Positions 10,652 to 60,997 of a stretch of DNA of 64,000 bases are shown here, in pieces (positions within the stretch are counted from its first letter, which is position 1; the number at the start of each line of letters is the position of its first letter). Location: NCBI RefSeq assembly GCF_000814765.1, contig NZ_JWIC01000004.1:62001-126000 (forward strand), in the 5' to 3' direction. The notes under the pieces are model-generated. The model was not told the DNA's origin. It was given only the letters and a program-made list of their open reading frames with translations, and ran no database searches. Source of the stretch: Pseudoalteromonas luteoviolacea (GTDB lineage: Bacteria > Pseudomonadota > Gammaproteobacteria > Enterobacterales > Alteromonadaceae). The position numbers and the translations under genes are program-made.

Positions 10652-11428
10652 TTATTCTGGGTAGCAAACCATATTAACAACTCGCCATAATCCAGAGCCT
10701 GTGTAAGTGGTACGGCATCTCATTTTGAAGCTGTTAAACGACTCAAGGATGTGTAATTGTCTGCGCAGATCTGATGTTGAACCATCTCTTAGTCTAAAAC
10801 TTGAGTCGACGCGGTCGCCACTTTTATGTGTAAATACGACGTCTTCTTCTATGTCACAAGTACCGGCTGTACTTACTTTACACATGGATATAGGTTTTCT
10901 TTGTCCGCCAATTACTTTAGCTGTAATTATATAAGTAGCCAGAGAATTTGAGTTTTTTGATTTATCGATAAGTTTATTTGTTATTGCTGAAATTGACGTG
11001 GATCCAACTTCTGCCGCTGCACCAGTAACTAGCCCTTCTAATATTCTAGAGCGGGTAGATCCTACACCTGCATTTTGCATACTGTATTCATCATCTAAAT
11101 CAATCATCTCTGGTTGTCTGCATGCTTGTTCAGTACAACCTCCTGGTGGTGGAGTATACGATCTGTATGTGTATAAACGATTATTTCTAACTGCACTCAC
11201 AAAGTTATACATGATGGTATATATTTCTTGATCTCGATTACATTGAGAGGAATAACAAGTAATATCAAACTTTAACGAGTTTATTCGATTACTGGATGAT
11301 GTGTGTTTAACTTTGACTTCAGTACTACCCGATTTAAAATATGTGCCTCCAACTTGCCAAGCGCTGACAGATATTGGGGATAGCAGGAACGCCATTAGAG
11401 ATGCATAATAAAATAGTTTTCTTTGCAT
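10652..11428 (-). CDS. orphan secreted protein of unknown function
   Basis: I do not recognise this 258-aa protein. It has a clear signal peptide (hydrophobic core ASLMAFLLSP, predicted cleavage after SVSA near residue 23). The mature part has nine cysteines (C58, C63, C98, C102, C182, C189, C237 and C255 among them), which suggests a disulfide-bonded periplasmic or extracellular protein. The middle (about 125-160) is a small-residue-rich segment that could be a hydrophobic helix. AAGGAA gives a good ribosome site before the ATG. It stands alone, in AT-rich DNA, between two look-alike terminators, in a place where rpmG and mutM are neighbours in other gammaproteobacteria. This fits an accessory gene gained recently. 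Confidence 0.75.
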   Translation of the reverse strand: MQRKLFYYASLMAFLLSPISVSAWQVGGTYFKSGSTEVKVKHTSSSNRINSLKFDITCYSSQCNRDQEIYTIMYNFVSAVRNNRLYTYRSYTPPPGGCTEQACRQPEMIDLDDEYSMQNAGVGSTRSRILEGLVTGAAAEVGSTSISAITNKLIDKSKNSNSLATYIITAKVIGGQRKPISMCKVSTAGTCDIEEDVVFTHKSGDRVDSSFRLRDGSTSDLRRQLHILESFNSFKMRCRTTYTGSGLWRVVNMVCYPE

Positions 11429-12975: not shown

Positions 12976-13467
12976 ATGGGGTTAAGCCGAAAAGCCTGGA
13001 ACAATGTGGTGATTTTCTCCATGTTGATTATGATCTTCTTTCTCAATGGGCTACATCATAAGTTAAATCCGCAACAAGCTGAATTTGAGAGGGTTATGGT
13101 ATTGCCAGAGCACAGCTTTGTACTGGCTATGGCCTACCCAGGGGTTAAGATAGAGCGTATAGGCACTACGTGGCGTATTGAAAATAAGCTGGGTGGTAAA
13201 GTGCAAACAGCCTATACCGAGCAAGAGCTTGTTCAGATAGTTCAGCTTTGGCAACACACGGAATTACAATCGATAGCACCACCTCAGCTCAATCCAGAGT
13301 CAGCAATTTCGGTTGCGACTTTTTGGGTAGCTGGAGAGGAATTACCATTAAGTTATCAGCTATATCGAACTGATGAGCTGTATTTGCTCTATGCTAAGCG
13401 TCAACAGCTGTGGCTGGAACTTAATGCCGATATAGCAACGCAATTATTTAAACCAATAGAATTATAG
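12976..13467 (+). CDS. small membrane-anchored protein of unknown function upstream of mutM
   Basis: I do not recognise the family. The protein (163 aa from the ATG at 12976; in-frame GTG 12955 and ATG 12961 are alternatives) has one N-terminal membrane segment ([13 protein letters not shown]) and a soluble remainder with an alternating-charge, beta-strand-like pattern, probably exposed to the periplasm. It ends 2 nt before mutM, so the two are surely co-transcribed. The mutM link is by position only; a role in repair does not follow. GGGG 5-6 nt before the 12976 ATG is the best ribosome site. Confidence 0.7.
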
Positions 13468-13469
13468 TT

Positions 13470-14279
13470 ATGCCAGAATTACCAGAAGTTGAAGTCAGCC
13501 GTTTAGGTATTGAGCCTCATATCAAAGGCCATGTTGTCAATGAAGTCCGCATTCATAATGGCCGTTTACGCTGGCCTGTGCCTGAAGATGTTGCGCGTTT
13601 AGAGGGAAAAGCAATTTCAGCGGTGAGACGCAGAGCTAAATATTTACTGTTAGACAGCGAAGCGGGCACTGGGATCCTTCATTTGGGGATGTCTGGCAAT
13701 TTACGAGTCGTTGAGCACAGTGAACCTTTGAAAAAACACGATCATGTTGAATTGCTCTTTGATAACGGTTTAGCCTTGCGGCTTAATGATCCACGCCGTT
13801 TTGGCGCATTTTTATGGCAAGACCCCGAACAGCAACACAGTGTTTTTGCTAAGTTGGGCCCAGAGCCGTTAACAGATGCTTTTGACGCCAATCATTTATA
13901 TCAAGCCAGTCGTGGTAAAAAAGTTGCGGTGAAGCAATTCATTATGGATAACCACGTGGTCGTCGGGGTTGGCAACATATATGCTAATGAGTCTTTGTTT
14001 AAAGCGGGGATCCACCCAAAACGTGAAGCTGGTAAAATTTCGCTAGCACGTTATCAAAAGCTCACGCCAATCATTAAAGAAACGCTCGCAGCAGCCATTA
14101 AACAAGGTGGAACAACCCTAAAAGACTTTGCTCAAAGTGATGGTAAGCCGGGTTACTTTGCCCAAGAGCTTTTAGTGTATGGTCGAAAAGGCGAGCCCTG
14201 TGTGCAATGCGATACCACGTTGCAAGAGATCCGATTAGGGCAGCGTAGCACTGTGTACTGCACTAAGTGCCAACGCTGA
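13470..14279 (+). CDS. mutM: formamidopyrimidine-DNA glycosylase
   Basis: Bifunctional DNA glycosylase/AP lyase that removes 8-oxoguanine and formamidopyrimidines. The N terminus [20 protein letters not shown] shows the catalytic Pro2 and Glu3. Lys in [10 protein letters not shown], the H2TH motif ([19 protein letters not shown]) and the C-terminal zinc finger with CVQC and CTKC are all present. Length 269 aa is usual. It is two nt from the upstream gene and 8 nt from the convergent M20 gene, leaving no room for a terminator. Separated here from rpmBG, its usual neighbour. Confidence 0.97.
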
Positions 14280-14287
14280 CAAAATCC

Positions 14288-15415
14288 CTATGCTTGATGT
14301 GCCGCAGGTGTCGCTATGCTCGCTCGAAAACAGAGTTCAGATAATATGGCCGTCATTTGTTCAGTGCGCAACTCGAAACTGGACTTGAGTGCACGCTCAT
14401 TGCGAGTGTGATCACCATCGCCATAGGGGCCGAAGCCGTCTAATGTGGGCGTCCCTGTGGCAGAAGCTGTATTTGCGTCTGATACGCCACCACGATGTTC
14501 AATTGGTTGAGCTTCCCCAAGGATGTCGTTAATTTCTTCGAGCAGTGACTGTTGTGCGGCGTTTGGTGCCATCACGCCACGTTGCAATCCTCCCTGTATC
14601 TCCACCTCCACGCCAGTGATTTCGATGGCCATACAAATGTTTTCAATCCCTTCCAATAACCTTTGTTGTTCTGCTTGGTTTGTAAATCGCGCTTCAACCT
14701 GCATACTTGCTTTACCTGAAATGGTGTTCGCACCAATGCCGCCTTGCACTTTACCGACATTCACAGTACTACCCGCTTTGAGGTCGGTTAATGAGGCCAT
14801 TTCTAACAACATATTTGCCATAGCAAAGTTGGCATCAATGCCATCTCTGTAGTGATTACCTGCATGGGCAGGTTTGCCTGTCACTGTGATGTGATAGGTT
14901 GCAATGCCTTTTCTGGCCACGACAAGCTCATGCTCTTTTCCTGCGGCTTCAAATACAAAACATGCATCATATTGTTTGGCTATCTTCGTCGTCAAAGCTT
15001 GGCTGTCGTCACTGCCAATTTCTTCATCACTCACTAGCAACCAGTCTATATTTGCGAGTTGACCATATTGCTGTTTAAGGCGTCTTAGTGCGTTCAGTGC
15101 CACCCAGTTACCGCCTTTCATATCACACACACCAGGCCCATAAACATAGCGGTCGTCTTCGGAAAACTCGGTGAAAGTATCTTTGGGAAAGACGGTGTCT
15201 AGATGTCCTAATAACAATATGCGTTTGCCTGAACTACGAGGTGAGCGAAACAGTAAATGGTCACCAATATGTTCACGTTGGTAGCGTGTCAGTGAAAAGC
15301 CAAGCGGTTCAATGAGAGCGATCATTTGTTCACCGTGTTGATCCACCCCGACTTTATTTTTACTGTGCGAGTTACAGCGTATTAAGTCTGCTAATTCTGC
15401 ATAGTTTAGATTCAT
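14288..15415 (-). CDS. M20 family metallopeptidase (glutamate carboxypeptidase-like)
   Basis: A 375-aa zinc peptidase of family M20, most like carboxypeptidase G2/ArgE-type enzymes. The di-zinc and catalytic residues are visible: H71 and D73 (GHLDTVFP), bridging D98 (CDMKGG), E131-E132 (DEEIGS), E156 (FEAAG), the dimer-face His in PAHAG, and a C-terminal His in GDGDHTRN. There is no signal peptide, so it should act in the cytoplasm. It is divergent from the ATP-grasp/M14 operon and shares its 180-nt control region, so a joint pathway is plausible. Substrate unknown; C-terminal amino acids of short peptides or N-acyl amino acids are the family options. Confidence 0.88.
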   Translation of the reverse strand: MNLNYAELADLIRCNSHSKNKVGVDQHGEQMIALIEPLGFSLTRYQREHIGDHLLFRSPRSSGKRILLLGHLDTVFPKDTFTEFSEDDRYVYGPGVCDMKGGNWVALNALRRLKQQYGQLANIDWLLVSDEEIGSDDSQALTTKIAKQYDACFVFEAAGKEHELVVARKGIATYHITVTGKPAHAGNHYRDGIDANFAMANMLLEMASLTDLKAGSTVNVGKVQGGIGANTISGKASMQVEARFTNQAEQQRLLEGIENICMAIEITGVEVEIQGGLQRGVMAPNAAQQSLLEEINDILGEAQPIEHRGGVSDANTASATGTPTLDGFGPYGDGDHTRNERALKSSFELRTEQMTAILSELCFRASIATPAAHQA

Positions 15416-15533
15416 CCTAATCTTCTCCCTGTGAAGGTTTGGCTCATCGTGGCGTTTTTCGGTTGCAGTTCGGTGAAGCTTTTATGAACAGTTTTCAGTT
15501 CAGTAAAAGGATCAAAAATTTGTCATACAGATG

Positions 15534-15550
15534 GTCTTAACTAGTAAGAC
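15534..15550. promoter_or_regulatory. inverted repeat in the divergent control region
   Basis: GTCTTA (15534-15539) and TAAGAC (15545-15550) around ACTAG, between the M20 gene and the first ATP-grasp gene. A TTGTCA (15520-15525) nearby could be a -35. Possible operator; not tested. Confidence 0.35.
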
Positions 15551-15594
15551 ATCACTCTGTTTTTGCACCTATTTTTAAACCAAGGAGATACTTT

Positions 15595-16542
15595 ATGACT
15601 GCCGTATCGCGGGCGCCTCATGTCGGGATTTGGATGTACGAAAATGGCGGGGGAAGAGAAATTGAACAACAGTTAGTTCACGCTTTAGCTGAGCGTGGGA
15701 TCCAAGCTAGTACAGGTCTAAATCTGCGTGATGCTAGAGCGCGAGATGGTGGAATTGAATGTAATGGTGTGTCCATGGAGCAGTTAGATGCCTTTTTGAG
15801 CTACAACGCGGGTCAGCAAACGCAATATCAGCTTTACCTTTATGAAACTCTAAACGAAACGATCCCTACACTGAATAATTATCGCGCTTTTGCATTGGCA
15901 GAAGACAAGTTTCGTACGTCACACTTGCTCAATAGCCATGGGATCTGTACACCAGATTATCGTTTATGCCATAAAAATGACATGGATGGTCTGCGTGCTG
16001 CGCTGCACGATTTTGGGGGGAAGTTAGTCTATAAACCCACAGATGGTTGGGGCGGCGTCGGCATTGTAAAAATAGAAGGCGAACAGGCGCTGGATATGAT
16101 CATGCCTTTTTTAAGTCGTACTGATTTACGTTACTTTTACGTTGAGCGTTTTATCAATTATGACAATACCGATTATCGTGTTGATGTTGTAGATGGGCAG
16201 TTTGTTGGCTGTTATGGCCGAAAAGCTCCTAAAGATGATTGGAAAACCAATGTAACCAGCGGTGGGAGCGTTTTTGTGCGTGAAGCCAATGATGAAGTGG
16301 TGGCACTGGCATTAAAAGCAACTAAAGCGCTGGGTCTTGAAATCTCTGGCGTTGATTTAATTTACGACCGCGAAAAAGAACAATATGTGGTGTTAGAGGT
16401 GAACACAATTCCTGCCTTTGCCACCCCAGAGCAAGAGCAGTTAGGACTGACATTTAATCAAGCTAAAATCCAAGCTATGGTGGGTTTGATTGAAAAAACA
16501 GTGACCAATAAAACTTCATTTCAATCTGCCAAGGTGGCCTAA
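15595..16542 (+). CDS. RimK-like ATP-grasp ligase
   Basis: A 315-aa protein of the ATP-grasp superfamily, RimK-like. The N-terminal part is a pre-ATP-grasp domain; the grasp fold follows (about 95-305), with EDKFRTSHLL, the ATP-binding Lys in VYKPTDGWGGVGI, a Gly-rich loop, GGSVFVRE, SGVDLIYD and the Mg-binding VLEVNTIP. Enzymes of this group join a carboxylate to an amine through an acyl phosphate (peptides, side-chain extension by Glu). Strong ribosome site AAGGAG, 7 nt spacing. It is followed 4 nt later by a second ATP-grasp gene. No signal peptide. The substrate is unknown. Confidence 0.87.
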   Translation: MTAVSRAPHVGIWMYENGGGREIEQQLVHALAERGIQASTGLNLRDARARDGGIECNGVSMEQLDAFLSYNAGQQTQYQLYLYETLNETIPTLNNYRAFALAEDKFRTSHLLNSHGICTPDYRLCHKNDMDGLRAALHDFGGKLVYKPTDGWGGVGIVKIEGEQALDMIMPFLSRTDLRYFYVERFINYDNTDYRVDVVDGQFVGCYGRKAPKDDWKTNVTSGGSVFVREANDEVVALALKATKALGLEISGVDLIYDREKEQYVVLEVNTIPAFATPEQEQLGLTFNQAKIQAMVGLIEKTVTNKTSFQSAKVA

Positions 16543-16546
16543 TCTC

Positions 16547-17926
16547 ATGCAAAATAAAACACAATTACCTAAAATCGGACTACTTTATCTCGATTATGTA
16601 CTGCGCTTTTTTGACAAGTCTAATTTTAAAGGGTGGCCCGATAAAATTGAAACTGTGGTATTTCACTGGGGGAATGACAAGGCGCGTTTTATTGCTGAGG
16701 TAAAGCGTAAAAAAATAGATGTCCTGATCGGCAATATTCCGGCAACGGCATATGAAACATTTAGAGAGATCGCCAGAGCATTGCCAGAAGTCAGGTTTTT
16801 GCCTTCATTGGACAGCCAATTCTCCAATAAATCTAAAGAAAATGTGACGCATTTTTGCCGCAAATATAAGCTGCCAGCACCACATACTGAAATATTTTAT
16901 ATTCCAGAGAGAGCGCAGCAATATCTAGCAAATGCACAGTATCCAAAAATTATTAAGCGCTCTTATGGACCTTCAAATTATGGGGGCTACTTTGTTCATA
17001 AAGTAGATAGTGCTGAAGAAGCCAAGACTTTATTGAGTGAGAAAAAGTATTACCCACTTTATATTCAAGATTTTGTGCCTATGGAAGCGGATATTCGTGT
17101 GATGCTGATTGGGCATAAACCTGTATGTGCTTTTTGGCGCAGACCTCCTGAAGGGGAATGGTTAACCAACACCAGCCAAGGTGGGAGTATGGATTACCAA
17201 GCGGTGCCTAAGTCGGTATTAAAACTCGCAACAGCGGCTTCTAAAGCGGCAAATGCAGAGTATTGGGCATGTGATATTGCTCTGGGTAAAGATGGTAAAT
17301 TACGTATCTTAGAATGTGCAACAGCCTTTGCTGCATTCCCTTACATTCGAGATTGGATTGGTCAATACTTGATGTGGTTATTGTCGAGTGGATACTTCAG
17401 AAAGCCTAATATCCCGCTCTACAACTGGGAAGAACTCGGCAAAATTGACGCGCGTTTACTGCGCACGATGCGCCACATTGGATTTTCTCAGTACACACCA
17501 AGCCAAGATTGCGGTGAAGTATTCAAGCAACTGGATGAGCAGGCTTTTCCTATTCTAGACACTGATTTTAAATTGGGAGAAGAGTGGCCAAGTGAAGTGT
17601 GGAATCTGCAAGATAACTTTGTGTTGGGCGCCAGAACAGTTGCGGCTAAGGCGATGCAGCCAATCCCTGCCAGTGATGAGCTAGCTGAAGATCTGAATAA
17701 TTATGATGCCCCGCAATTTGATGAAGCGCAAGTGAGAGCGTTACTGAGTCAAGTCCGTGGTGTGGGCGAAAAAATGGTCGATGACATTATGACGACATTC
17801 GGTGCACATGGTGTTGTTGAAGCATTAAATACTGATCCACAAAAGTTGTGTGTTGTGAAAAACCTCAAGGATAAGAAATTAGAAAAAATAGTCGAGCACT
17901 GGCAAAACCATGCTGGGCAAATCTAA
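16547..17926 (+). CDS. ATP-grasp-like protein with C-terminal helix-hairpin-helix region
   Basis: A 459-aa protein. The first ~100 residues resemble a pre-ATP-grasp domain. Residues about 105-300 look like a RimK-type grasp domain: KIIKRSYGPSNYGGY (ATP lysine and loop), YIQDFVPMEADIRVMLIG, TSQGGSMDY and, in place of the usual NxxP, ILECATAFAAFP. After a linker, the last ~60 residues read like tandem helix-hairpin-helix motifs (VRGVGEKMVDDI, then VKNLKDKKLEKIVEHW), known from RuvA/UvrC-type DNA-binding or protein-protein modules. Such a fusion to an ATP-grasp enzyme is unusual. Its Mg site is less canonical than that of the upstream ligase. Four nt separate the two genes, so they are co-transcribed. 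Confidence 0.82.
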   Translation: MQNKTQLPKIGLLYLDYVLRFFDKSNFKGWPDKIETVVFHWGNDKARFIAEVKRKKIDVLIGNIPATAYETFREIARALPEVRFLPSLDSQFSNKSKENVTHFCRKYKLPAPHTEIFYIPERAQQYLANAQYPKIIKRSYGPSNYGGYFVHKVDSAEEAKTLLSEKKYYPLYIQDFVPMEADIRVMLIGHKPVCAFWRRPPEGEWLTNTSQGGSMDYQAVPKSVLKLATAASKAANAEYWACDIALGKDGKLRILECATAFAAFPYIRDWIGQYLMWLLSSGYFRKPNIPLYNWEELGKIDARLLRTMRHIGFSQYTPSQDCGEVFKQLDEQAFPILDTDFKLGEEWPSEVWNLQDNFVLGARTVAAKAMQPIPASDELAEDLNNYDAPQFDEAQVRALLSQVRGVGEKMVDDIMTTFGAHGVVEALNTDPQKLCVVKNLKDKKLEKIVEHWQNHAGQI

Positions 17927-18001
17927 TGGATACCAACAGATAGACCAAGTGACGGGGGCTGTTGCCGCCGTCTATTTTCGTTCAACGAGTAAGCCTGTGC
18001 T

Positions 18002-20587
18002 ATGAAAATTCAATACGCTTCCTATCAAGATACTATCGACGCTTTGCAATCTGCAATGAGTGAACACCCGCATTTAATTCGACTTCAGAGTATTGGCCAA
18101 ACGTGGGAGGGGCGACCGATCATGTTGGTAACGGTCTCTTTAGACGTCACTTACGCCGATGATAAACCCGCTCTATTGTACACCGGCTCTATTCATGCCA
18201 GAGAGTGGATAGGCAATGAATTGGCACTCAAGTTTATTCAGTACATTACTGAAAATTATCGCTTTAACCCCAAGTTGCAGAATGCTTTGACGCGCAATAC
18301 TTTGTACATGGTGCCTTGTTTAAACCCGGATGGTTTTGAATATTCTCGCAATCACTTTTCGTTTTGGCGTAAGAATCGTCGCAACAATGGTGATGGCACT
18401 TATGGAGTAGACTTAAACCGTAATTTTGATGCTAAGTTTATGCGTAATCAAAATATGGGATCAAATACCTATGGTGGGCCACACGCGTTTTCTGAGCCCG
18501 AGACGTGTGCGATCCGAGATTTTGTTGAGCTGCATGACAATATTCGTATTGCGCTAGATTATCACTCTCAAGGGAATGTATTTTTTCCTGCGCACAAATT
18601 TAACCATGAAGTAGAAATAGAAGGGGCTGATTTAAATATCTTATGCGCCAACATGAATCATGAGATTAAAAAAGTGACGGGTAGGCAATATGGCATTCAT
18701 CGCGGCAAGCCTCCCGCTCAGCTCATTCATGGCAGTGGTCGAGAATATTATTATCGTAAAGGCATTATTGCCACCGTTGTTGAGGTGGGGACGAGAAACA
18801 TTCCAGATTATATGAAAAATATGTCGGAAAGCGTCGCTGAAAATATTCCGGCAATTGTACACGCGCTAAGTGAAGCGATTAATTACTCGCCTCTGGCACC
18901 GGAACGTGTTGTCGGGTTTACTATCAAGGAAATTGATCATGAGGGCGTTGAGCTTGAGTGGCAATATGACAATAGAGATGATATTTACTTTGAGTTGTAT
19001 CGTAGTGAGAGTAATAAAAGCCCCTGCGGTGAGGAAAGCCTAATCGCTATAACCAAGTCATTGTCTTTCAGAGATTCACAGCTGCGCAGTGGACAGAGCT
19101 ATTTTTATAATATCCGTGCTGTAGATAAGGTAACAAAGATAAAATCGCCTTTTAGTCCTGAGTTGCGATTAAAAACACATCTAGATCGACATCAAAGTGC
19201 TCGCACTTTATTTCCTGCCAAGGAGTTTGTCGGCTATCTGAGCGAAAACTATCTCTCTAAGAATAAGGAGCACTTTGGTTATAACTCGATGTTTATTGGA
19301 GTGGATAAAAAGCGTGGGGTGAGTATTGGCGTCGTGCAGTTTGATTTAAGCTCTTTACCTGTCGGTGCTGATATCGAGCGGGCGGAGTTTTCCCTGTACC
19401 CGATGAATCGAGTCGCTGCCAAAATTGAACAATACGGCGAGTGGTCAGTGGCCATTATTGATGCGCATAGTGTGTCAGATATTTATGATTATCAGGCTGT
19501 GAGTGAGGCTAAACCACTTCATACCTTAGGACAGACGTTTGAATCAGATAAAATGACGCAAGGGATCTGGATGAAGTGGCAATTTAATGGCGTTGAGCGC
19601 ACACTCTTAAACTCATTAATTAAACGACAAAGTTTGCTATTACGCTTACAAGGTCCCAAAACATTGCCCATTGGTAATGACTCGCAGGTAATGCAATTTG
19701 ATATTGGCTATGGCCCTTTTGGTAGCGGTTTGCACTACCGGCCTAATTTAGAGCTTGTTTATCAGGTGCCAGAACAGCAATTAACCTTACTGCCTACGCG
19801 TTGCAATACCATCTATAAGGAGTCAGTCGTAGCAGATAGACTGGCCTCTGGATTTGATGAGCATGGCGAGATTGTATATGGACAAATGGCCTTTACATTA
19901 AATGCAGATTTACCGGTGGACAAAACGGTTTTCACACAAGCGTGTCTAACACTGCGTAGCTGCAATAGCATAGCCAGCGCTAAAGATGTACGTTTTACTA
20001 TTGAGCTAGTGGAGCTTCAAGATGTTGATTTTCAAGCTGTTAAACAACGTCAAAAGATAGAGTATATCGGCTATGAAGTGAGTAATGAGCAGTTGCGAGA
20101 ACGCGCAGAGCATCATTTTATCTTCGATAGTTATAGCCTACAGGCACTAGAGCGGCTTCATCAGGCGCATACGCCTTTTTATTTTATTATTCGTGCGACA
20201 TCTGAATCTCAAGCCACCAATGCGCTCGTGAATTGGACTGCTTGCCAGGACCAACATCCAGCCCAGTTAAACATTCATTATATTACCAGGCGCAAACATG
20301 CTGTCACAGCACCACAAAACTTGTCGGCACACGTAGAAGGCGGTGTTGTTAAATTAGTTTGGGAAAACCCTGAAGACGAAGATTTTGTCGGCTGCTTTGT
20401 GGTACGAAACCGTTTTCATCCACCGCGCTCTCCTTTTGATGGGGTTAAGCTTTATGGCGGAAAAGATGCATATACGCTGGATAACTTTGGTAACGCGAAG
20501 TTGAGTAAGTACTATGCTGTGTTTAGCTATGATGATGTGCCAAATTATTCAGCTCCCTTGGTTCTACATTACTCTGGTGAAGAGTAA
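18002..20587 (+). CDS. multidomain M14 zinc carboxypeptidase
   Basis: An 861-aa protein. Residues 1-290 form an M14 carboxypeptidase domain with zinc ligands H65 and E68 (HAREW) and H188 (DYHSQG), substrate-binding NPDGFEYSRN and DLNRNF, and general base E261 (VVEVGT). Then follow a fibronectin-III-like domain (about 300-395), two jelly-roll modules of DNRLRE/CBM-like type (about 400-590, with FDLSSLPVGADIERAEFSLY, and 590-760), and a C-terminal Fn3 domain (about 765-861). Such accessory domains are normally extracellular, yet there is no signal peptide and an in-frame TAA (17990) excludes an upstream start. It lies 75 nt after the ATP-grasp-HhH gene on the same strand, so the ligases and a carboxypeptidase probably share one transcript. 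Substrate unknown. Confidence 0.87.
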   Translation: MKIQYASYQDTIDALQSAMSEHPHLIRLQSIGQTWEGRPIMLVTVSLDVTYADDKPALLYTGSIHAREWIGNELALKFIQYITENYRFNPKLQNALTRNTLYMVPCLNPDGFEYSRNHFSFWRKNRRNNGDGTYGVDLNRNFDAKFMRNQNMGSNTYGGPHAFSEPETCAIRDFVELHDNIRIALDYHSQGNVFFPAHKFNHEVEIEGADLNILCANMNHEIKKVTGRQYGIHRGKPPAQLIHGSGREYYYRKGIIATVVEVGTRNIPDYMKNMSESVAENIPAIVHALSEAINYSPLAPERVVGFTIKEIDHEGVELEWQYDNRDDIYFELYRSESNKSPCGEESLIAITKSLSFRDSQLRSGQSYFYNIRAVDKVTKIKSPFSPELRLKTHLDRHQSARTLFPAKEFVGYLSENYLSKNKEHFGYNSMFIGVDKKRGVSIGVVQFDLSSLPVGADIERAEFSLYPMNRVAAKIEQYGEWSVAIIDAHSVSDIYDYQAVSEAKPLHTLGQTFESDKMTQGIWMKWQFNGVERTLLNSLIKRQSLLLRLQGPKTLPIGNDSQVMQFDIGYGPFGSGLHYRPNLELVYQVPEQQLTLLPTRCNTIYKESVVADRLASGFDEHGEIVYGQMAFTLNADLPVDKTVFTQACLTLRSCNSIASAKDVRFTIELVELQDVDFQAVKQRQKIEYIGYEVSNEQLRERAEHHFIFDSYSLQALERLHQAHTPFYFIIRATSESQATNALVNWTACQDQHPAQLNIHYITRRKHAVTAPQNLSAHVEGGVVKLVWENPEDEDFVGCFVVRNRFHPPRSPFDGVKLYGGKDAYTLDNFGNAKLSKYYAVFSYDDVPNYSAPLVLHYSGEE

Positions 20588-20594
20588 GTAACTT

Positions 20595-20617
20595 GATTCA
20601 GGGGACCCCCCTGAATC
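20595..20617 (+). terminator. hairpin after the M14 gene
   Basis: GATTCAGGG (20595-20603) and CCCTGAATC (20609-20617) form a perfect 9-bp stem with a 5-nt loop, 7 nt after the stop codon. A weak T-rich stretch follows (TGTCTTAATT). Probable end of the ATP-grasp/M14 operon. Confidence 0.6.
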
Positions 20618-21121
20618 TGTCTTAATTCAATTAACTAAAAATAAACTTAAAATTAATAAATTAATTTACAGCGTATGGAGCGTCCTTTTATACCGTAACC
20701 CATTAATTTAATTATTTTTAGTTCTTAATGCTGCCTGTCGATGGTAAGAAAAATTCCCGAGTCACCTGCTAATTTTATCGCCAGTGAGCGAGGTTAATTT
20801 AACACCTATGAGTGTCTTATAGAGTACAGCTGCACACGCTGAAGTGCAGTGCTCGCTCGCTAAGTGTATCGCTCTTCCCTATTTTTTATTGGCGCATGAA
20901 CAGGTTTTAGGGTGAATTGTATGGGAACGGGAGGGTGGCCAAACTGTCCGTAATTGGGTGACCCATTTTATGTTCGATCAAGGCAATGGATTGCTAAGAT
21001 AAGAGTGATACGCATGGACGCTTTGTTACATGCGTGAAAGTGCGCTACCGGTTTTTATACTTGGCGCGTACCTGGGATGTCAGTTACCATTTAGGTTTTA
21101 TAGTAAATGTGAAAAACGTGT
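20618..21121. other. intergenic region, no gene seen
   Basis: About 500 nt. The first 130 nt are very AT-rich; the rest is of mixed composition with several short GC-rich repeats of GCTCGC type. No frame over 30 codons with a ribosome site and no recognisable RNA. It must hold the promoter of the following gene. Confidence 0.4.
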
Positions 21122-21736
21122 ATGACTGAACTATATCACTGGTTTGATTTGCTGGGTGTTATGGTCTTTGCAATCTCTGGTACTTTATTGGCTTATCGCA
21201 AGCATATGGATGGCTTTGGTGTGGTTGTGCTTGCAACGGTTACTGGCATTGGTGGTGGCACAATACGGGATGTGATATTAGATACCCCGGTATTTTGGCT
21301 CCATGATAGTAGCTATTTTATCGCTATTTTTAGTGCGGTTATATTATGTATCTGGTGGATTAATCGGCAAAAAACGGTGCCCAAACAGCGATTATTGACT
21401 GCCGATGCATTTGGATTGGCCTTTTTTGCCGTGATGGGAATGCAAAAAGCCATGAGCTTGGATATGCCAGATACCACTGTCATTATCATGGGGGTTTTAA
21501 CCGGGTGTTTTGGTGGCGTTGTCAGGGATGTATTAGCAGATGAGATGCCAATATTACTCAAAGGTGAGCTTTATGCTATTACCTGTATTATTGGGGGAAT
21601 AGTGTATACGCAATTGATGCATTTGGGCGTCTCACTTGAAGTCACTATGGTGGTGTCGATGTTGACTATTTTATTGTTGCGTCTTGCTGCTATTCGTTGG
21701 CATTTGGTGTTACATGTATTCCAATATAAAGCTTAG
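21122..21736 (+). CDS. TRIC-family trimeric cation channel protein (YicG-like, UPF0126)
   Basis: An inner membrane protein of 204 aa with about seven membrane segments arranged as two repeats. Each repeat has the glycine-rich kink and RDV motif of the prokaryotic TRIC family: GIGGGTIRDVIL near residue 40 and GCFGGVVRDVLADE near 125. Prokaryotic TRIC homologues form trimers that pass monovalent cations; the physiological role in bacteria is unclear, and E. coli YicG has been linked to glycine uptake. It stands alone 80 nt upstream of comM, in the same direction. Confidence 0.9.
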   Translation: MTELYHWFDLLGVMVFAISGTLLAYRKHMDGFGVVVLATVTGIGGGTIRDVILDTPVFWLHDSSYFIAIFSAVILCIWWINRQKTVPKQRLLTADAFGLAFFAVMGMQKAMSLDMPDTTVIIMGVLTGCFGGVVRDVLADEMPILLKGELYAITCIIGGIVYTQLMHLGVSLEVTMVVSMLTILLLRLAAIRWHLVLHVFQYKA

Positions 21737-44288: not shown

Positions 44289-45626
44289 ATGACTCAAGAC
44301 AGTGAATATAAGCTACTTGATAGTTTGTTTGATGAACTGTTCCCGCTCTGCAGATCCATCACAGGTCATGGTATAGAAGCATCTATGGATATCATCGGTA
44401 GATATATGCCATTGACGTTCGATAAAGTAAAAAGTGGCACTCAGGTTTTTGATTGGGTTGTGCCTGCCCAATGGAACTTCCGACGTGCACGACTTTGGGG
44501 GCCTGACGGGGAGGTGATCTGTGACACTAATATCAATAATTTACATGTTGTTAGTTATTCTGAGCCCGTCGATAAATACCTCACCTTAGAAGAGTTGCAG
44601 CCGCACTTACATAGTTTACCAACGCTGCCAGATGCTATCCCTTACGTGACAAGTTATTATCAAAGAACATGGGGGTTTTGTCTTAAAGATAAAGACAGAC
44701 AAGCATTACAGCAGGGGCGTTACCGAGTTTTGATAGAATCTGAATTTGATCCTGAGGGGGGAGTGCCATTTGCGCAAACGCTGCTTGAGGGGCAAAGCCA
44801 AAAAGAAGTCTTGCTTAGCAGCTATCTTTGTCACCCTTCGCTTGCTAACAATGAACTCAGTGGGCCACTGGTGTTACTTGGTTTATATAATCGAATCAAG
44901 CAATGGCCAAAAAGGCGCTTTTCCTATCGGTTTTTACTGAATCCAGAAACTATTGGTTCGTTATGCTTTTTACACAAACACTATCAATCACTCGCTGAAA
45001 ACTTAGAAGCAGGTCTGATCCTCACTTGTATGGGTGGTGATGTGGACTCGTTAAGGTATAAAGCGAGCCGCAGAGGTGACAGCGTTTTTGATCAACTGGC
45101 TAGGCAGTTAAGCGATTCGGATAGCCTTCGCTTTGTTGAGTTTACGCCTTTGCATGGCTCTGATGAACGTCAGTATTGTGCACCTGGGTTCAACTTACCT
45201 GTTGCCCAAGTCAGTCGTTCATTGAATGTTACTGAGGTGCCATATCACACTTCTATGGATGATAAAGATGCGATGAACATGGCACGCATCATTCAGTCAA
45301 TCGATGAGGTTGAGCGCTACTTAAAGTTGGGGGAAATTGCGGGGAATGCCGTTAATCAAAGTCCATTTGGTGAACCACAGCTTGGGAAACGAAACCTCTA
45401 TCCAAATATGAATACCCTTGCTCATGCTGATAAATCTAGTGACAGTTTGGTGGATGGTCGCACAAAGCTGAACGCTATTTTGACTATATTAAGTGAGTCT
45501 GATGGCACCAAAGCGATGGTGAACATTGCACAGTCATTGGGGTTGGAGTTGGCCTCATTGGAATCTGTGATTGATGAACTGGAACAACATCGGCTGATTG
45601 AGTTTAATACTGGAGAAGTGTTATGA
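44289..45626 (+). CDS. DUF4910/DUF2172-type aminopeptidase-like protein
   Basis: A 445-aa protein resembling the DUF4910 family: SLFDELFPLCRSITG at the N terminus, FDWVVPAQWNFRRA, SSYLCHPSLANNELSGPLV (likely zinc-site region), LNPETIGSLCFL, GSDERQYCAPG and EVPYHTSMDD. A winged-helix-like C-terminal part (about 380-445) ends the protein. Family knowledge: zinc aminopeptidase-like fold, often encoded in surface polysaccharide or modified-sugar loci. No signal peptide. AAGGA lies 5 nt before the ATG. It overlaps the next gene by 4 nt (ATGA), so the two products are translationally coupled. The substrate is unknown. Confidence 0.85.
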   Translation: MTQDSEYKLLDSLFDELFPLCRSITGHGIEASMDIIGRYMPLTFDKVKSGTQVFDWVVPAQWNFRRARLWGPDGEVICDTNINNLHVVSYSEPVDKYLTLEELQPHLHSLPTLPDAIPYVTSYYQRTWGFCLKDKDRQALQQGRYRVLIESEFDPEGGVPFAQTLLEGQSQKEVLLSSYLCHPSLANNELSGPLVLLGLYNRIKQWPKRRFSYRFLLNPETIGSLCFLHKHYQSLAENLEAGLILTCMGGDVDSLRYKASRRGDSVFDQLARQLSDSDSLRFVEFTPLHGSDERQYCAPGFNLPVAQVSRSLNVTEVPYHTSMDDKDAMNMARIIQSIDEVERYLKLGEIAGNAVNQSPFGEPQLGKRNLYPNMNTLAHADKSSDSLVDGRTKLNAILTILSESDGTKAMVNIAQSLGLELASLESVIDELEQHRLIEFNTGEVL

Positions 45627-46420
45627 GTATCGTTTTTATCACTGGTAATCACCCAAGACATGCTTACATAGCCCGGTGTTTGGCAGCCACAGGCAAATTA
45701 AAAAAAGTGATTATTGAGCAACGAGAGGCGCATTTACCTGCGCCGCCTGCAGACATTGATGCTCAATTAAAGTCATTATTTCGCGCGCATTTTGCTAAGC
45801 GAGAAGAGGCTGAGTTTGAAATGTTTGGGGCGCCACGATGGCCAGATGTGGAAACGGTCAATATTGATGTGCAAGCGCTCAACACTGAGTATGTTAAACA
45901 GCATATAGCAGCCACTGATCCCGACTTGTTAATCACTTATGGCTGCCATATGTTGAGTGATGATACATTGGCGTGCGCCACTGGTGAAAAATGGAATATT
46001 CATGGTGGATTGTCCCCGTGGTACCGAGGAGCCATTACACATTTCTGGCCAAGTTACATGCTTGAGCCACACAAAACGGGTATGACAGTACATGAGTTAA
46101 CTCAAGACTTAGATGCTGGGGCCGTCGTTCATCAATGTGTCGCACCGTTGTACAGAGGAGATGGGCTTCATCAATTAGCGGCGAGAGCGGTGTTAAAAAT
46201 CGGTGATGAGCTACCTCAATTGGTGGGCATGTTATACGAACAGGGGGCAAACTCGATTACCAAGCTAGCGCATACTACGACAGGCAAACTATGGCTTGGC
46301 AGTCAGTGGCGCCCAGAGCATTTAAAGCTCATTTATCAGTTTTATAATGACGATATTGTTGATCATTACCTCGATGGCAAATTTGGTAAAAGTGAGTTAA
46401 AGCTACACCGACAGTTTTAA
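45623..46420 (+). CDS. formyltransferase-family enzyme
   Basis: A 265-aa protein of the methionyl-tRNA/GART formyltransferase fold. The catalytic triad is visible: N125 and H127 in WNIHGGLSPWYRG and D164 in TQDLDAGAVVHQ. It lacks a C-terminal tRNA-binding domain, so it is not Fmt. Enzymes of this size formylate amino sugars (from 10-formyl-tetrahydrofolate) or related amines. The ATGA overlap with the aminopeptidase-like gene shows they work together, but no glycosyltransferase or nucleotide-sugar gene is next to them. The acceptor is therefore unknown. Confidence 0.85.
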   Translation: MSIVFITGNHPRHAYIARCLAATGKLKKVIIEQREAHLPAPPADIDAQLKSLFRAHFAKREEAEFEMFGAPRWPDVETVNIDVQALNTEYVKQHIAATDPDLLITYGCHMLSDDTLACATGEKWNIHGGLSPWYRGAITHFWPSYMLEPHKTGMTVHELTQDLDAGAVVHQCVAPLYRGDGLHQLAARAVLKIGDELPQLVGMLYEQGANSITKLAHTTTGKLWLGSQWRPEHLKLIYQFYNDDIVDHYLDGKFGKSELKLHRQF

Positions 46421-49346: not shown

Positions 49347-49557
49347 TAGATTTTCGATTTATCTGTAAATACACGCTTTGAGGTTATTATTTCATGAAAA
49401 TGTGCTCAGAACACTGGTAAGTACGTGACTAATAGTTGTAAACTCAGATATTAATTGTGCAAGGCTTGTGTTTTACATCGTAACTACATAGCATTGAGCA
49501 TTAAAACATCAAAAATAACAAAGACCAAAACAACTGCCGCTGTTGGGAATGGAATAT

Positions 49558-51570
49558 ATGCGAATTGCTCCTTTATCTCTTTTTGTCTCTGCCGCCTTAT
49601 TGTCTGTAAGTGTTTGGGCACAAGATACTGCGACTGTGACAGCTATCGAGTCAGAGCGCTCCGAGAAACAAGCTGAGTTAGATAGATATACTCAGATATT
49701 AGACAAGCACGTGGCTGAAGAAGCCCGTTTACAATCGCAACTAGAACTGTTGAGGAGTAACTCGACGGAACTGGATAAAGAAAAAAATCAGGCACTCGAT
49801 GCCATGAATGATTTGTATCGTCGGCTTATCGATGATCCATCTATTGATATTTCATCGGCACAGATGCGATACCAGCAGTCTGTTGCTGATCATAAAGCGA
49901 ATAAAGAAGACATAGCGATGCAATTAGCGGCCATAGCATCGCACCGCAAGGATATTGAGCAGATCCGTGTTAGCAAGCACACACTCGTTAATACGCTCGC
50001 GAGTTTAAAAGACCAGCTTAGTACTGCGCGCGTTGAGCGACTTCGCAATGAATTTACCCGAGAGGGCACTCTTGAGGTTGAGCATACAATTAATTGTAAG
50101 CGGACTGAAACGTTAGCGGCTTGTGAGCAAAGAGGCCAGCAGCTGGGTTTGCAAAAAGCAACCAAACGCTTTATCGACCAAATATTTGCAAACTTAACAG
50201 AGCAACGGGCAGTTGAGCCAAAACGTCATTTGGCTGGGGCACAAGTGCAGGTCGTGAGTAGTCACGTGATTGGCAGTGCATTTAGTGGTCAAGGCAACTA
50301 CAGTGTTAACTTAAGTGTGACGATGCGAGGCGACGTCAATAATAGCCGTTTGTGTGGTCTACTTGCGTTGGATAACCGTTTTTGTAGTGAATATGGCACG
50401 CCATTATCGGTGGGCTATCAAGCAAGCTATCCAACAACATTCAGTGATAGTCAGCTGACGTTTAAAGATGAACTAGATAAACCGACGCCGAGCGTGCCTA
50501 GCGTGACGGCAATGCAGCCGAAAACGGAAATCAAATCTCAAATTATTCAGCAATCACCACAGGATAGACAAGTCGATCTAACTCTAAGGTCAAATGTGTA
50601 TGATGATGAAGTCTTTATCGATGGTGTGAGCTATGGTTCGACTAAGCTTGTGGTCAGTGTGCCTTTAGGATCTTACGATATTGAAATCCGAAAGCTTGGG
50701 TATGAGTCTTATAAGGCAAGAGTTGACGTGCGTCGCGCACGAACGATAAACGCTAAGCTGATAAAAAAGCCTGAGTCGATTGCTGCACCGACACCGAAAA
50801 GAGAGCAAGTTGAGCGACAAGTCGCTGTGCAAAAGTCAGTGACGCCCAACTTGGTTGAAAATAAAGTGGTGATTATCCCTGCAGGTTCATTCCAAATGGG
50901 AGATTTAACGGGGAATGGCCTTGCTAATGAGCGCCCGGTTGTCGAGAAAGTACTGAGTCATTCATATGCCATGCAAAGCAATGAAGTGACGGTTGCAGAA
51001 TTCAGGCAGTTCATTATAAGTACGGGTTATCAAACTGAAGCTGAGAAAGGGACGGGCTGTGCACACTATAAAAACGGTGAGCCGATTTGGGAAAGCGAAT
51101 ACAACTGGAGCAATCCAGGTTTTGAGCAAGCTGAAAACTTTCCAGTGGTGTGTGTGACTTATGAAGATGCTAAAGCATATGCAAATTGGTTGTCTGCAGA
51201 ACAAGGGATCCAATATCGTTTGCCTAATGAAGTTGAGTGGGAATATGCGGCTCGAGCGGGTACCAGTTCAGAATACCCTTGGGGCAATGAAATTGGTCGA
51301 GGGCTGGCAAACTGTGGATGGTGTGGCAGTGAGTGGTCAAATAAAAGCCCATCACCAGTAGGTGAATTTTCACCAAATAACTATGGTTTGTATGATACCG
51401 TTGGCAACGTATGGGAGTGGACGCAAAAGCGTGCTTCTCAAGATGATGTCACGGTGCGCGGAGGTGCATGGAACTTTGCGCCTAGCTTAGCTAGAGTGTC
51501 TACTCGCTTAGCGTTAGCGCCTGATTTTAGAGCTAATTATATTGGTTTTAGATTAGTTCGAGAAAGATAA
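49558..51570 (+). CDS. secreted coiled-coil/PEGA/SUMF1-domain protein
   Basis: About 670 aa. Signal peptide (MRIAPLSLFVSAALLSVSVWA), a coiled-coil of ~120 residues rich in Glu/Lys/Gln, a cysteine-bearing middle domain (about 160-290), a PEGA domain (DDEVFIDGVSYGSTKLVVSV, about 355-410), a linker, and a C-terminal SUMF1/formylglycine-generating-enzyme-like domain (about 430-670; PAGSFQMGD, RLPNEVEWEYAARAGT, YGLYDTVGNVWEWT, VRGGAWN, YIGFRLVRER). The domain lacks the paired cysteines of a true formylglycine-generating enzyme near the C terminus (IGFRL in place of IGFRC), so catalysis of that kind is unlikely. Start at 49558 or an ATG three codons upstream. Between the CsrD-like gene and mreB. 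Confidence 0.86.
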   Translation: MRIAPLSLFVSAALLSVSVWAQDTATVTAIESERSEKQAELDRYTQILDKHVAEEARLQSQLELLRSNSTELDKEKNQALDAMNDLYRRLIDDPSIDISSAQMRYQQSVADHKANKEDIAMQLAAIASHRKDIEQIRVSKHTLVNTLASLKDQLSTARVERLRNEFTREGTLEVEHTINCKRTETLAACEQRGQQLGLQKATKRFIDQIFANLTEQRAVEPKRHLAGAQVQVVSSHVIGSAFSGQGNYSVNLSVTMRGDVNNSRLCGLLALDNRFCSEYGTPLSVGYQASYPTTFSDSQLTFKDELDKPTPSVPSVTAMQPKTEIKSQIIQQSPQDRQVDLTLRSNVYDDEVFIDGVSYGSTKLVVSVPLGSYDIEIRKLGYESYKARVDVRRARTINAKLIKKPESIAAPTPKREQVERQVAVQKSVTPNLVENKVVIIPAGSFQMGDLTGNGLANERPVVEKVLSHSYAMQSNEVTVAEFRQFIISTGYQTEAEKGTGCAHYKNGEPIWESEYNWSNPGFEQAENFPVVCVTYEDAKAYANWLSAEQGIQYRLPNEVEWEYAARAGTSSEYPWGNEIGRGLANCGWCGSEWSNKSPSPVGEFSPNNYGLYDTVGNVWEWTQKRASQDDVTVRGGAWNFAPSLARVSTRLALAPDFRANYIGFRLVRER

Positions 51571-51673: not shown

Positions 51674-52743
<1,070 letters not shown>

Positions 52744-52744
<1 letters not shown>

Positions 52745-53586
52745 TGAATTTACTGTTTGTCCGAAGCATATCTTTACAACTGCGACTTACTGTCGCAGTT
52801 GTGCTTAGTATTGTCTTAATCATTGGTGATAGATATACCTCTGGTGGCACTTTTGTCAGAACGACCCTCAATACGCTCGTCAGTCCGGTATTATACGCTG
52901 CCAATGTTCCTTATGAACTGTTTAACGTTGGCGCACAGACTTTACATACACGTGATAGGCTGCTCAACGAGAATGAACTGCTTAGAGCCAAGCAATTGCT
53001 ACAAAGCGAACAACTTCAGCAATATCAATTCTTACTCAAAGAAAACAGTGAGCTACGAGCGCTATTAGGCGCATCTTCCCGTCAATCTCAAAGTCGCCAA
53101 ATAGCACAAGTGCTATCGGTGCGATCGAATCGTTATAACCATCAAATTGTCGTGAATAAAGGCACTATCGATGGTGTTTCCGAGGGGCAAGCGGTTATTG
53201 ACGAGTTGGGCTTGGTCGGCCAGCTCACACATGTTGGCACAACGACTTCTCGTGTCCTTCTGATGACTGACACCACCCATGCTACACCGGTTCGAATATT
53301 AAGAAATGATGTCAGTATGGTGGTCGAAGGGATTGGTAAAATTAACCTAGTTCAGCTTGCCCACGTATCGCACAGCTTAGATATTCGAATCGGAGATATT
53401 TTAGTTACGTCGGGGCTTGGGAGTCGTTTCCCTGAAGGCTACCCGGTGGCGGTGGTGACTGAAATTGATCGAGATGAAGGACTCCCTTTCGCCAAGGTAT
53501 ACGCTGAGCCAATCGCACAGCTTGATAGGATCCGGCTATTAGTTATTTTAGGAGAAAGCAACGCAGAGGTTAACAATGAGTCGTAG
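52744..53586 (+). CDS. mreC: rod shape-determining protein MreC
   Basis: A 280-aa single-pass inner membrane protein. A membrane segment (LTVAVVLSIVLIIGD) is followed by a periplasmic coiled-coil (about 75-115) and the beta-domain (ARSNRY-type start, VVNKGTIDGVSEGQAVID, LVTSGLGSRFPEGYPVA). It links MreB to PBP2 and RodA. It overlaps mreB by 1 nt and mreD by 11 nt, so translation of the three is coupled. Confidence 0.97.
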
Positions 53587-54052
53587 TTTTTCTTTTATCA
53601 CCTTCAGCGTATTTCTCGCCCTTATCATGGCGTTGATGCCATTACCTTTTTCTTTAGAACCTTTTAGGCCGGATTGGGTCCTATTGGTATTGATGTATTG
53701 GTCTATTGCATTACCCCATCGAGTTAATATTGGTTGGGCGTGGTGTACAGGCTTAATCATGGATTTGGCAGTGGGGTCGCCTCTGGGAATTAATTCGTTG
53801 ACTTATTCTGTATGTATTTACATTACGGTCAGTAATTTTCAGAAGTTAAGAAATTTTTCGTTGTGGCAGCAAGCGATGTTAATAGGCTTGTTTCTAGCGC
53901 TTTACCACTTATTGCAGTTTTGGTTAAACCACTTCTTGTTAGATATTTACTTTAACCCTGCATATTTATGGCCAGCACTGGTGGGCATGCTGTGTTGGCC
54001 TTGGATATTTCTCTTACTCAGAAAGTATCGTAGACACTTTAGGATCCGTTAA
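53576..54052 (+). CDS. mreD: rod shape-determining protein MreD
   Basis: A 158-aa inner membrane protein with about five membrane segments. PFSLEPFRPDWVLLVLMYW and GLIMDLAVGSPLGINSLTY are typical for MreD. It completes the MreBCD complex. It overlaps mreC by 11 nt upstream and maf by 1 nt downstream (TAATG). Confidence 0.95.
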   Translation: MSRSFSFITFSVFLALIMALMPLPFSLEPFRPDWVLLVLMYWSIALPHRVNIGWAWCTGLIMDLAVGSPLGINSLTYSVCIYITVSNFQKLRNFSLWQQAMLIGLFLALYHLLQFWLNHFLLDIYFNPAYLWPALVGMLCWPWIFLLLRKYRRHFRIR

Positions 54053-54621
54053 TGGCAGTAAAACTATATTTAGCATCGGCTTCACCACGCCGTAAAGCGC
54101 TACTGAGTCAACTTGGTTATGTCTTTGAGCAATTTTCTGTCGATGCGGATGAGCGCGCGCTGCCAAATGAACATCCAAAGGCATTGGTGGAACGACTTGC
54201 TCGTTTAAAAGCGCAAACTGGAGTAGGGATCGGACAAGAAGATCGTCCCGTGTTAGGCAGTGATACGATCGTTGTGGCAGAAGGTAAAGCACTCGGTAAA
54301 CCAGTCAATAAGGCCGACTTTTTATCGATGATGGCAAGGCTATCGGGCAAGACACATCAGGTGATGACGGCAATTGCATTAGCAAATAGTGAAAAGGTCA
54401 TAAGCCAGACGGTGGTGACCGATGTGACATTTAAAGTGCTGTCAGATGATGAAATTGAACAGTATTGGTTAAGTGGAGAGCCTCAAGATAAAGCGGGTGG
54501 TTATGGTATACAGGGCCTAGGTGGGCGATTTGTAACACAGCTCAAAGGTAGTTATTTTGCAGTAGTCGGACTACCTTTATATGAAACAGACGAATTAATT
54601 CAAGCATTTATGGCGGGCTGA
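54052..54621 (+). CDS. yhdE: Maf-like nucleotide pyrophosphatase (YhdE)
   Basis: A 189-aa Maf/ITPase-fold enzyme. SASPRRKALL at the N terminus, the metal/base-site LGSDTIVV (catalytic Asp) and GKPVN, and DKAGGYGIQG are all present. The E. coli homologue YhdE removes dTTP, UTP and modified pyrimidine nucleotides. It starts on the mreD stop codon, in the same order as E. coli (mreD-yhdE-rng). Confidence 0.95.
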   Translation: MAVKLYLASASPRRKALLSQLGYVFEQFSVDADERALPNEHPKALVERLARLKAQTGVGIGQEDRPVLGSDTIVVAEGKALGKPVNKADFLSMMARLSGKTHQVMTAIALANSEKVISQTVVTDVTFKVLSDDEIEQYWLSGEPQDKAGGYGIQGLGGRFVTQLKGSYFAVVGLPLYETDELIQAFMAG

Positions 54622-54622
54622 G

Positions 54623-56095: not shown

Positions 56096-56101
56096 GCCGA
56101 T

Positions 56102-60136: not shown

Positions 60137-60166
60137 GTTAGATATTTACGCTGGGGTTAAAGCAAT

Positions 60167-60997
60167 ATGATGAGAGCAAAGCAGGCCAATCTAGTCGTCA
60201 TCCCGATGTGTTCAGGGAGTGTCCCGGAAGATAACTTTCGATATTTAACTGAGCAACTCAATGCCATATGTGTTGAATCCCCCACGTTAGTTTGCTTACC
60301 GGAAGCTTGGTTGGCATTTTGTGCAAATGGAAGTGATACGTTTGATGTCGCTCAATCCAGTGATGTGTGGATAGAGAAAATCTCGCAGCTTTGCAAAGAG
60401 AAAAATATTTGGCTGCATGCAGGTACAATTCCTATTCAAGCGACTGGGGAGAAATATTATGCGGCTAGCTGCTTATTTGATGATCAAGGTCAGCTTGTCG
60501 CTCAGTATAATAAAATTCACTTATTTGATGCGGATGTCAGCGATCAATCTAAACGCTACAGAGAATCAGACTTTACCGAAGCTGGCAGTGAAGTTGTTGT
60601 TGTAGATAGTCCATTTGGTAGACTAGGCTTAAGTGTGTGTTACGACATGCGCTTTGCAGGCCTTTATCAGGTTCAACGTGCACAGCAAGCGAATATATTG
60701 CTAGTACCCAGTGCATTTACTACCGTAACAGGGGAAGCACACTGGCTGCCATTGCTACAGGCCAGAGCGATTGAAACGCAGTGTTTTGTTATTGCAGCGG
60801 CCCAAGTTGGGTTACACCAAAACGGGCGAGAAACTTATGGGCACAGTGTGATTATTTCTCCATGGGGAGAGGTGTTGGATGATAGTATGCTATCTTTGCA
60901 GCCCATTCAAAGACAGTTAGATTTTACCGAGCTGTATGATATTAGGCATGCGATGCCTGTATTCAAGCACAATCGATTTAAGAGCAATATGATATGA
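60167..60997 (+). CDS. carbon-nitrogen hydrolase (nitrilase superfamily, Nit1-like)
   Basis: A 276-aa cytoplasmic amidohydrolase. The Glu-Lys-Cys triad is E46 (LPEAW), K116 (NKIHLFD) and C158 (VCYDMRF), spaced as in the family. It is most like Nit1/NIT2-type amidases, which hydrolyse deaminated glutathione or omega-amides of 2-oxo acids; which of these is not decided. It overlaps tldD by 4 nt (ATGA), and follows yhdP by 30 nt. It lies between yhdP and tldD, which are neighbours in E. coli. Confidence 0.9.

Follow-up and report, generated by a model that had tools for sequence, protein, structure and literature searches.

Tubulin glutamylation sets an ATP-grasp-type ligase (TTLL) against an M14-family carboxypeptidase of acidic preference (CCP), and the LysX/ArgX-LysW-LysK pathway joins ligases of LysX/ArgX fold to an M20-type releasing enzyme. 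In the RimK/RimB system of S6 glutamylation, acidic residues are added by a RimK-fold ligase and removed by a protease, and in the RloA/B/C system of Pseudomonas an ATP-grasp protein shares an operon with a polyglutamate-cleaving protease (both according to PMC12239564). Here we describe a four-gene locus of Pseudoalteromonas luteoviolacea that resembles all four systems. It lies in a stretch of 64,000 nucleotides (nt), positions 62,001-126,000 of NZ_JWIC01000004.1, which is called the window and to which all coordinates refer. The locus encodes two ATP-grasp proteins, G1 and G2, and two metallopeptidases, named M14 and M20 after their families. The association of the four genes is far beyond chance, and we give an even chance to the reading that they form a self-contained cycle in which acidic amino acids are ligated and trimmed. 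The features of the locus are as follows.

14288-15415, minus strand: M20 metallopeptidase, read divergently (Pfam Peptidase_M20, 2.8e-22, and M20_dimer, 9.1e-17; PDB 1cg2, 2.1e-28)
15416-15594, no strand: divergent control region of 179 nt, with a conserved block at about 15473-15530 and an inverted repeat at 15534-15550
15595-16542, plus strand: G1, ATP-grasp ligase of RimK/LysX/MptN type (Pfam RimK, 1.1e-21), metal motif E-V-N intact
16547-17926, plus strand: G2, second ATP-grasp protein, of LysX/ArgX/RimK fold (Pfam RimK, 4e-11), in which E-C-A replaces E-x-N, ending in a helix-hairpin-helix (HhH) domain
18002-20587, plus strand: M14A carboxypeptidase (Pfam Peptidase_M14, 9.8e-57) with fn3, DNRLRE and fn3-like parts, and Arg247

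All four open reading frames (ORFs) were intact where an initial annotation of this DNA had placed them. Its layout, with two ATP-grasp genes 4 nt apart and the M14 gene 75 nt further on the same strand, agrees with both the coordinates and the Pfam matches, and the control region that M20 shares with the divergent ATP-grasp operon, given there as 180 nt, measured 179 nt. No listed NCBIfam model reached its curated cut-off for any of the four proteins (for M20, among the best 25 of 48 matched models). The same annotation had claimed that none of the proteins has a signal peptide. By simple hydropathy with one control, used in place of a trained predictor, no strong N-terminal hydrophobic stretch was found in the window proteins: the best 11-residue value within the first 40 residues was 0.21-1.31, as against 1.95 in another M14 protein of this genome, a secreted-looking paralogue. 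Single orthologues had higher maxima (G1 1.49, G2 1.73, M14 1.66, M20 2.58).

The four genes were found together or not at all. Among 41 genomes, comprising the source genome and 40 relatives, 10 contained orthologues of all four genes, the same 10 for each gene, and 31 contained none. These orthologues shared 55% identity or more with the window proteins, and the next matches of M20 and M14 stood at 38% and 33%, respectively. When 345 genomes sampled from the order (source genome included) were searched with G1, G2 and M14 at E 1e-40, the three proteins came from an identical set of 9 genomes, with 0 partial sets. Independent occurrence of the genes in relatives, which had been named beforehand as refuting the proposed unit, was thus seen in neither sample. 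At the level of the class, 369 genomes searched at 1e-15 gave two matches, namely the source genome itself and one partial match, at 57.9 bits over residues 86-262, taken to be another ATP-grasp protein. Because this partial match was all that the class sample gave beyond the source genome, the module is rare and patchy.

We then compared 90 loci, which were made up of the best 80 of 220 G2 relatives found by a contig scan with exact short peptide patterns, 9 further genomes, and one Photobacterium record; six of the 9 were taken as duplicates. G1 directly preceded G2 in 90/90 loci (median gap, 4 nt), M14 followed G2 in 85 of the 88 loci with enough sequence, and M20 was divergent in 83 of 84 testable ones. 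Pairwise distances of the four proteins correlated with r = 0.87-0.94 (the window plus the 72 loci in which each of the four is full length, duplicates kept). No fifth shared gene was found, the next commonest family being present in 8/57 loci. All-or-none occurrence in the searched genomes and a fixed order across two phyla bear out the claim that the four genes constitute one functional unit.

By their record titles, the best 80 relatives comprised 48 from Gammaproteobacteria (29 Pseudoalteromonas, 6 Photobacterium, 3 Endozoicomonas, 2 each of Veronia, Neiella and Colwellia, and 1 each of Halomonas, Shewanella, Motilimonas and an Alteromonadaceae metagenome-assembled genome, MAG) and 32 from Campylobacterota, all of them MAGs and 13 titled Sulfurovum. 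Judging from these names, we take the organisms to be mostly marine, vent or saline taxa. The Photobacterium record comes from a plasmid collection, and its module genes overlap at both operon junctions. When the rows were thinned to 56 and the trees rooted at their midpoints, Campylobacterota formed one clade (17/17 tips) for each of the four proteins, and Gammaproteobacteria did so in the M14 tree only. The Veronia and Motilimonas copies were nested among Pseudoalteromonas copies in the joined tree, and transfer of the whole unit is therefore indicated. The module directly follows mutM in many Pseudoalteromonas loci; the others had no mutM match within the fetched stretch.

The initial annotation had also pointed to an inverted repeat in the control region. 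GTCTTA-N5-TAAGAC is indeed present at 15534-15550, but only 1 of 13 aligned Pseudoalteromonas regions, the window itself, holds it whole, and it was rejected as an operator. A different block at about 15473-15530, GTGAAGCTTTTATGAACA followed by TCAAAA with TGTCA, is partly conserved in 13/13 Pseudoalteromonas loci and is the better operator or promoter candidate. Since its two-part pattern occurs in one place in the source genome, no regulon was seen. The first half alone, with up to 3 mismatches, has 9 occurrences, all but one of which need the full 3, as against 12 for a reversed control. A search of 13400-21200 with Rfam at gathering scores gave no match to an RNA element.

The G1 protein retains the motifs of a ligase of the RimK type. 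Its motif residues K105, K147, D254, E268 and N270 are invariant in 37 sequences, and the RimK-family, MptN and LysX models match it best, the top one, TIGR00768, at 134.2 bits lying a little under the cut-off of 143.4. It is nearest to alpha-L-glutamate ligases and LysX-type ligases, with a weak match to TIGR03103 (2.6e-10).

Structures were predicted for G2 and M14. The G2 model, with a predicted local distance difference test (pLDDT) of 71.8 overall and compared over its range outside the HhH tail, best matched ArgX with LysW/Glu/ADP among solved structures (Z 21.1, root-mean-square deviation (rmsd) 3.0, 263 aligned residues), tied with LysX (20.9) and RimK (20.8). G2 keeps the invariant lysines and two of three metal ligands. 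Its metal motif reads E-C-A in 36/36 sequences, the Asn of E-x-N being lost, and both G1 and a separate RimK-like protein of the source genome have E-V-N. The C-terminal HhH spans residues ~393-458 (~17723-17920) at a pLDDT of ~90. HHH_5 was matched at E up to 0.01 by 28/36 G2 sequences, the window protein falling below the curated cut-off. Two module genomes of the order sample, G032 and G438, have a G2 frame of 403 residues, too short for the HhH, whose absence was seen in the alignment for G032 and judged by frame length for G438. Neither the HhH domain nor the altered metal site had been mentioned in the initial annotation.

The M14 protein, 861 residues long, consists of a carboxypeptidase domain (1-297) followed by fn3, DNRLRE-like and last fn3-like beta domains; the DNRLRE-like part is probably present in two copies, judging from the strand pattern of the model. 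Orthologues matched fn3 in 23/31 and DNRLRE in 27/31 cases. Positions H65, E68, H188, E261, R123, N139 and R140 are invariant in 31 sequences, and we take them to be the zinc ligands (HxxE...H), the catalytic Glu, and the substrate-binding Arg and Asn-Arg. Judged by these residues, M14 is an intact M14A enzyme. Over the model range outside the beta domains, its closest fold was that of procarboxypeptidase B (Z 28.7, rmsd 3.1, 288 aligned), with carboxypeptidases T and A close behind. Arg247, invariant in 31/31 sequences, is probably situated at the residue-255 S1' specificity position, which sets C-terminal specificity in this family, carboxypeptidase O included. In the alignment, the secreted-looking paralogue has no Arg at this position. 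Carboxypeptidase O, an M14 enzyme, prefers C-terminal Glu/Asp (PMC6214572).

The closest solved relative of M20 is carboxypeptidase G2 (CPG2), a glutamate carboxypeptidase. M20 residues H71, D98, E131/E132, E156, H336 and R308, the last preceding a GG motif, align with CPG2 residues and are invariant in 32 sequences; presumably they form the two-metal site and supply the substrate-binding Arg. A glutamate carboxypeptidase model was matched by 32/32 M20 orthologues.

On this basis we propose the following cycle. G1 would use ATP to form an amide (peptide) bond through which an acceptor gains an amino acid, glutamate or aspartate being the likeliest. G2 would either make a second linkage or hold and present the acceptor, and in those copies that have an HhH tail this may bring G2 to nucleic acid or nucleoprotein. 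M14 would take off C-terminal acidic residues, so that the chain is reversed or shortened, and M20 would hydrolyse the last amide to return the acceptor or recycle the amino acid. We arrive at this cycle because acidic residues or glutamate-type amides are indicated, though not equally strongly, by G1, M14 and M20, and because two ATP-grasp proteins face two hydrolases; we infer the acidic specificity, the direction of each reaction and the cytoplasmic location. The logic of glutamylation and deglutamylation suggested by the initial annotation stands as a prediction only, drawn from G1 near glutamate and LysX ligases, M20 near CPG2, and Arg247 of M14.

Several observations weigh against this cycle. 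Its acidic specificity is predicted from homology and from one residue with a role in carboxypeptidase O, and G2 may be inactive. For the window M20, an unspecific "hydrolase" model scored higher (226 bits) than glutamate carboxypeptidase (PRK06133, 183.1 bits with a cut-off of 349), which in turn exceeded DapE/ArgE (106), and the protein was below the cut-off of each of the best 25 of its 48 matched models. Carboxypeptidase O came 47th of the best 50 matches listed for the M14 model (Z 26.7), behind carboxypeptidases B, T and A. The register of Arg247 relies on our reading of the motif and on a match to carboxypeptidase B, without net gap but weak (E 0.97) and with inferred chain numbering, that sets this Arg against the residue-255 region; that search gave ten matches, one of them a carboxypeptidase (B), and its net offset alone is usable. 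An earlier search of the M14 S1' sequence against solved carboxypeptidases gave two chance matches only. The M14 model has a pLDDT below 50 at 234-244 and 263-270, near Arg247, and the position that we take to match Tyr248 of carboxypeptidase A is variable in the orthologues. Finally, fn3 and DNRLRE domains are usual in surface proteins and suit a secreted enzyme better, at odds with the missing signal peptide.

In a few loci the set is incomplete. An Epsilonproteobacteria MAG (L089, 2300-4664) has G1 and G2 without adjoining M20 or M14; M14 is missing beside the ligases in L105 and also in L099, the contig of which is short. M14 has a short frame in Veronia nyctiphanis (L053, 10435-11481), an Endozoicomonas MAG (L095, 4044-5465) and Shewanella marina (L104, 11006-12934), which may reflect decay or sequencing error. 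As the peptidases are missing, or M14 is short, in these few loci, the ligases may work without them, and the two ATP-grasp proteins, kept alone in L089, may be the core of the module.

The acceptor in the proposed cycle could be a protein tail, a free peptide or a small molecule; a protein target and a small-molecule product are two branches of the same reading, and their probabilities overlap with it. The HhH argues for a macromolecular acceptor, and compactness together with the mostly marine spread argues for a small solute. If the acceptor is a protein, G1, with G2 as its recognition subunit, would tail one host protein, encoded elsewhere in the genome, with Glu/Asp, and M14 and M20 would remove the residues, which would make the module a bacterial equivalent of tubulin glutamylation or of RimK/RimB action on S6. 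The common RimK fold or family of G1 and G2, the macromolecular docking site suggested by the HhH, and an M14 that could be a deglutamylase in loci where no further family exceeds 8/57 are all consistent with this branch, but nothing linked to the locus is a candidate target, and G032 and G438 keep the module with a G2 too short for the HhH. We consider it possible, though unlikely.

If the acceptor is small, a peptide solute or natural product such as an osmolyte or storage peptide would be built by successive ligations of G1 and G2 and broken down by dedicated hydrolases, much as in the N-acetylglutaminylglutamine amide osmolyte system or in the synthesis of N-acetylaspartylglutamate by RIMKL enzymes. 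The host taxa, mostly marine, vent or saline, would suit such a product. Linked peptide ligases often act one after another (PMC4431377). However, the shared set includes no acyltransferase, amidotransferase or transporter, the next family being the one in 8/57 loci, and a peptide solute would leave both the HhH domain and an 861-residue carboxypeptidase unexplained. This branch, too, is held tentatively and at well below an even chance.

A further reading is a bacterial reversible acidic-tail code, independent of RimK/RimB and tubulin glutamylation and carried by a mobile cassette, in which an HhH-bearing G2 with its altered metal site would direct its active paralogue G1 to a nucleic-acid-associated target, and M14 as a cytoplasmic deglutamylase, with M20, would erase the mark. 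We regard this as improbable.

Two alternatives outside the cycle received very little weight. One is a graspetide, a ribosomally synthesized and post-translationally modified peptide, whose ribosomal precursor would be crosslinked by the ATP-grasp pair and matured by the peptidases. Two tandem ATP-grasp proteins would fit, and PsnB (7dro) was 37th among the listed fold matches of G2. Graspetide ligases, however, were not the best matches of G1 or G2, and no cross-genus short ORF of at least 18 residues was found in the gaps and flanks, the regions to which the search was confined. The few cross-genus groups of short ORFs were M14 sequence caught by region cuts in short contigs and were discounted; short frames shared within Pseudoalteromonas did occur in gaps and flanks, as expected from conserved DNA. 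A graspetide is accordingly judged very unlikely. The other is an anti-phage or inter-bacterial conflict cassette, which the patchy distribution and the transfer between genera would favour. PADLOC, run on the four module proteins, matched 0/4, G2 relatives in viral contigs amounted to 0/157 pattern matches, and no neighbour family is shared; such a role is highly doubtful. Least credible of all is a LysW-like carrier to which a ligase would add Glu and from which M20, like LysK, would release the product: G1 and G2 do resemble LysX/ArgX, and a [LysW]-lysine hydrolase model was matched by 32/32 M20 proteins (best 1.8e-14) among many others, but TIGR01206 was not found in the source genome (0/1; a control search was positive in 4/14 known genomes) and the module has no kinase, reductase or aminotransferase.

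Elsewhere in the window, the product of 10652-11428, 258 residues long, matches no Pfam family at 1e-5 and, as judged by eye, seems to have a signal sequence. At 44289-46420, DUF4910/DUF2172 is combined with a winged helix in a protein that we take to be probably of the CA_C2195 type and that a formyltransferase-like protein directly follows, and 49543-51570 encodes a protein with PEGA and FGE-sulfatase (sulfatase-modifying factor) domains. From 51701 to 62433, MreB, MreC, an RNase E/G family protein, YhdP, a carbon-nitrogen hydrolase and a PmbA/TldD-type metallopeptidase are encoded consecutively, which is ordinary context.

No description of the four-gene set was found in the literature searched, which did not extend to most journals behind a subscription or to an amidoligase survey of 2009 (PMC3268129). 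Each of the similar systems differs from the module in definite respects. RimB is a retropepsin-like aspartic protease that acts with one ligase, whereas here M14 and M20 are present and no retropepsin-like partner occurs in the module; the source genome has its RimK-like protein (L114) separately. The Rlo system has a secreted retropepsin and a membrane protein, without M14 or M20. LysW was not found in the source genome, and the other genes of the LysX/ArgX-LysW-LysK pathway are absent from the module. Tubulin glutamylation is eukaryotic, and the locus has an extra M20 and a second ATP-grasp protein; CCPs belong to another branch of M14. The module lacks a tested defining feature of RimK/RimB and of LysX-LysW-LysK, and Rlo and tubulin glutamylation are set apart by their descriptions.

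Two further systems invite comparison. RIMKLA/B and glutamate carboxypeptidase II provide a RimK-type ligase that makes an acidic dipeptide, N-acetylaspartylglutamate, and a dedicated glutamate carboxypeptidase that breaks it; these are animal enzymes, the peptidase is of family M28, and no M14 takes part. The N-acetylglutaminylglutamine amide operon combines an ATP-grasp ligase (model TIGR03103) and a metallopeptidase in a small operon, but also requires a GNAT domain and an asparagine-synthase-like protein, both outside the present module.

The four genes are small enough as a set for transfer to Escherichia coli. If the proposed cycle is true, it would be new chemistry in marine and vent bacteria, with a solute or a protein mark as its possible product. 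RimK/RimB, Rlo, LysX-LysW-LysK and tubulin glutamylation share the logic of the module, which would offer a bacterial pair of ligase and carboxypeptidase whose logic parallels eukaryotic glutamylation and deglutamylation.

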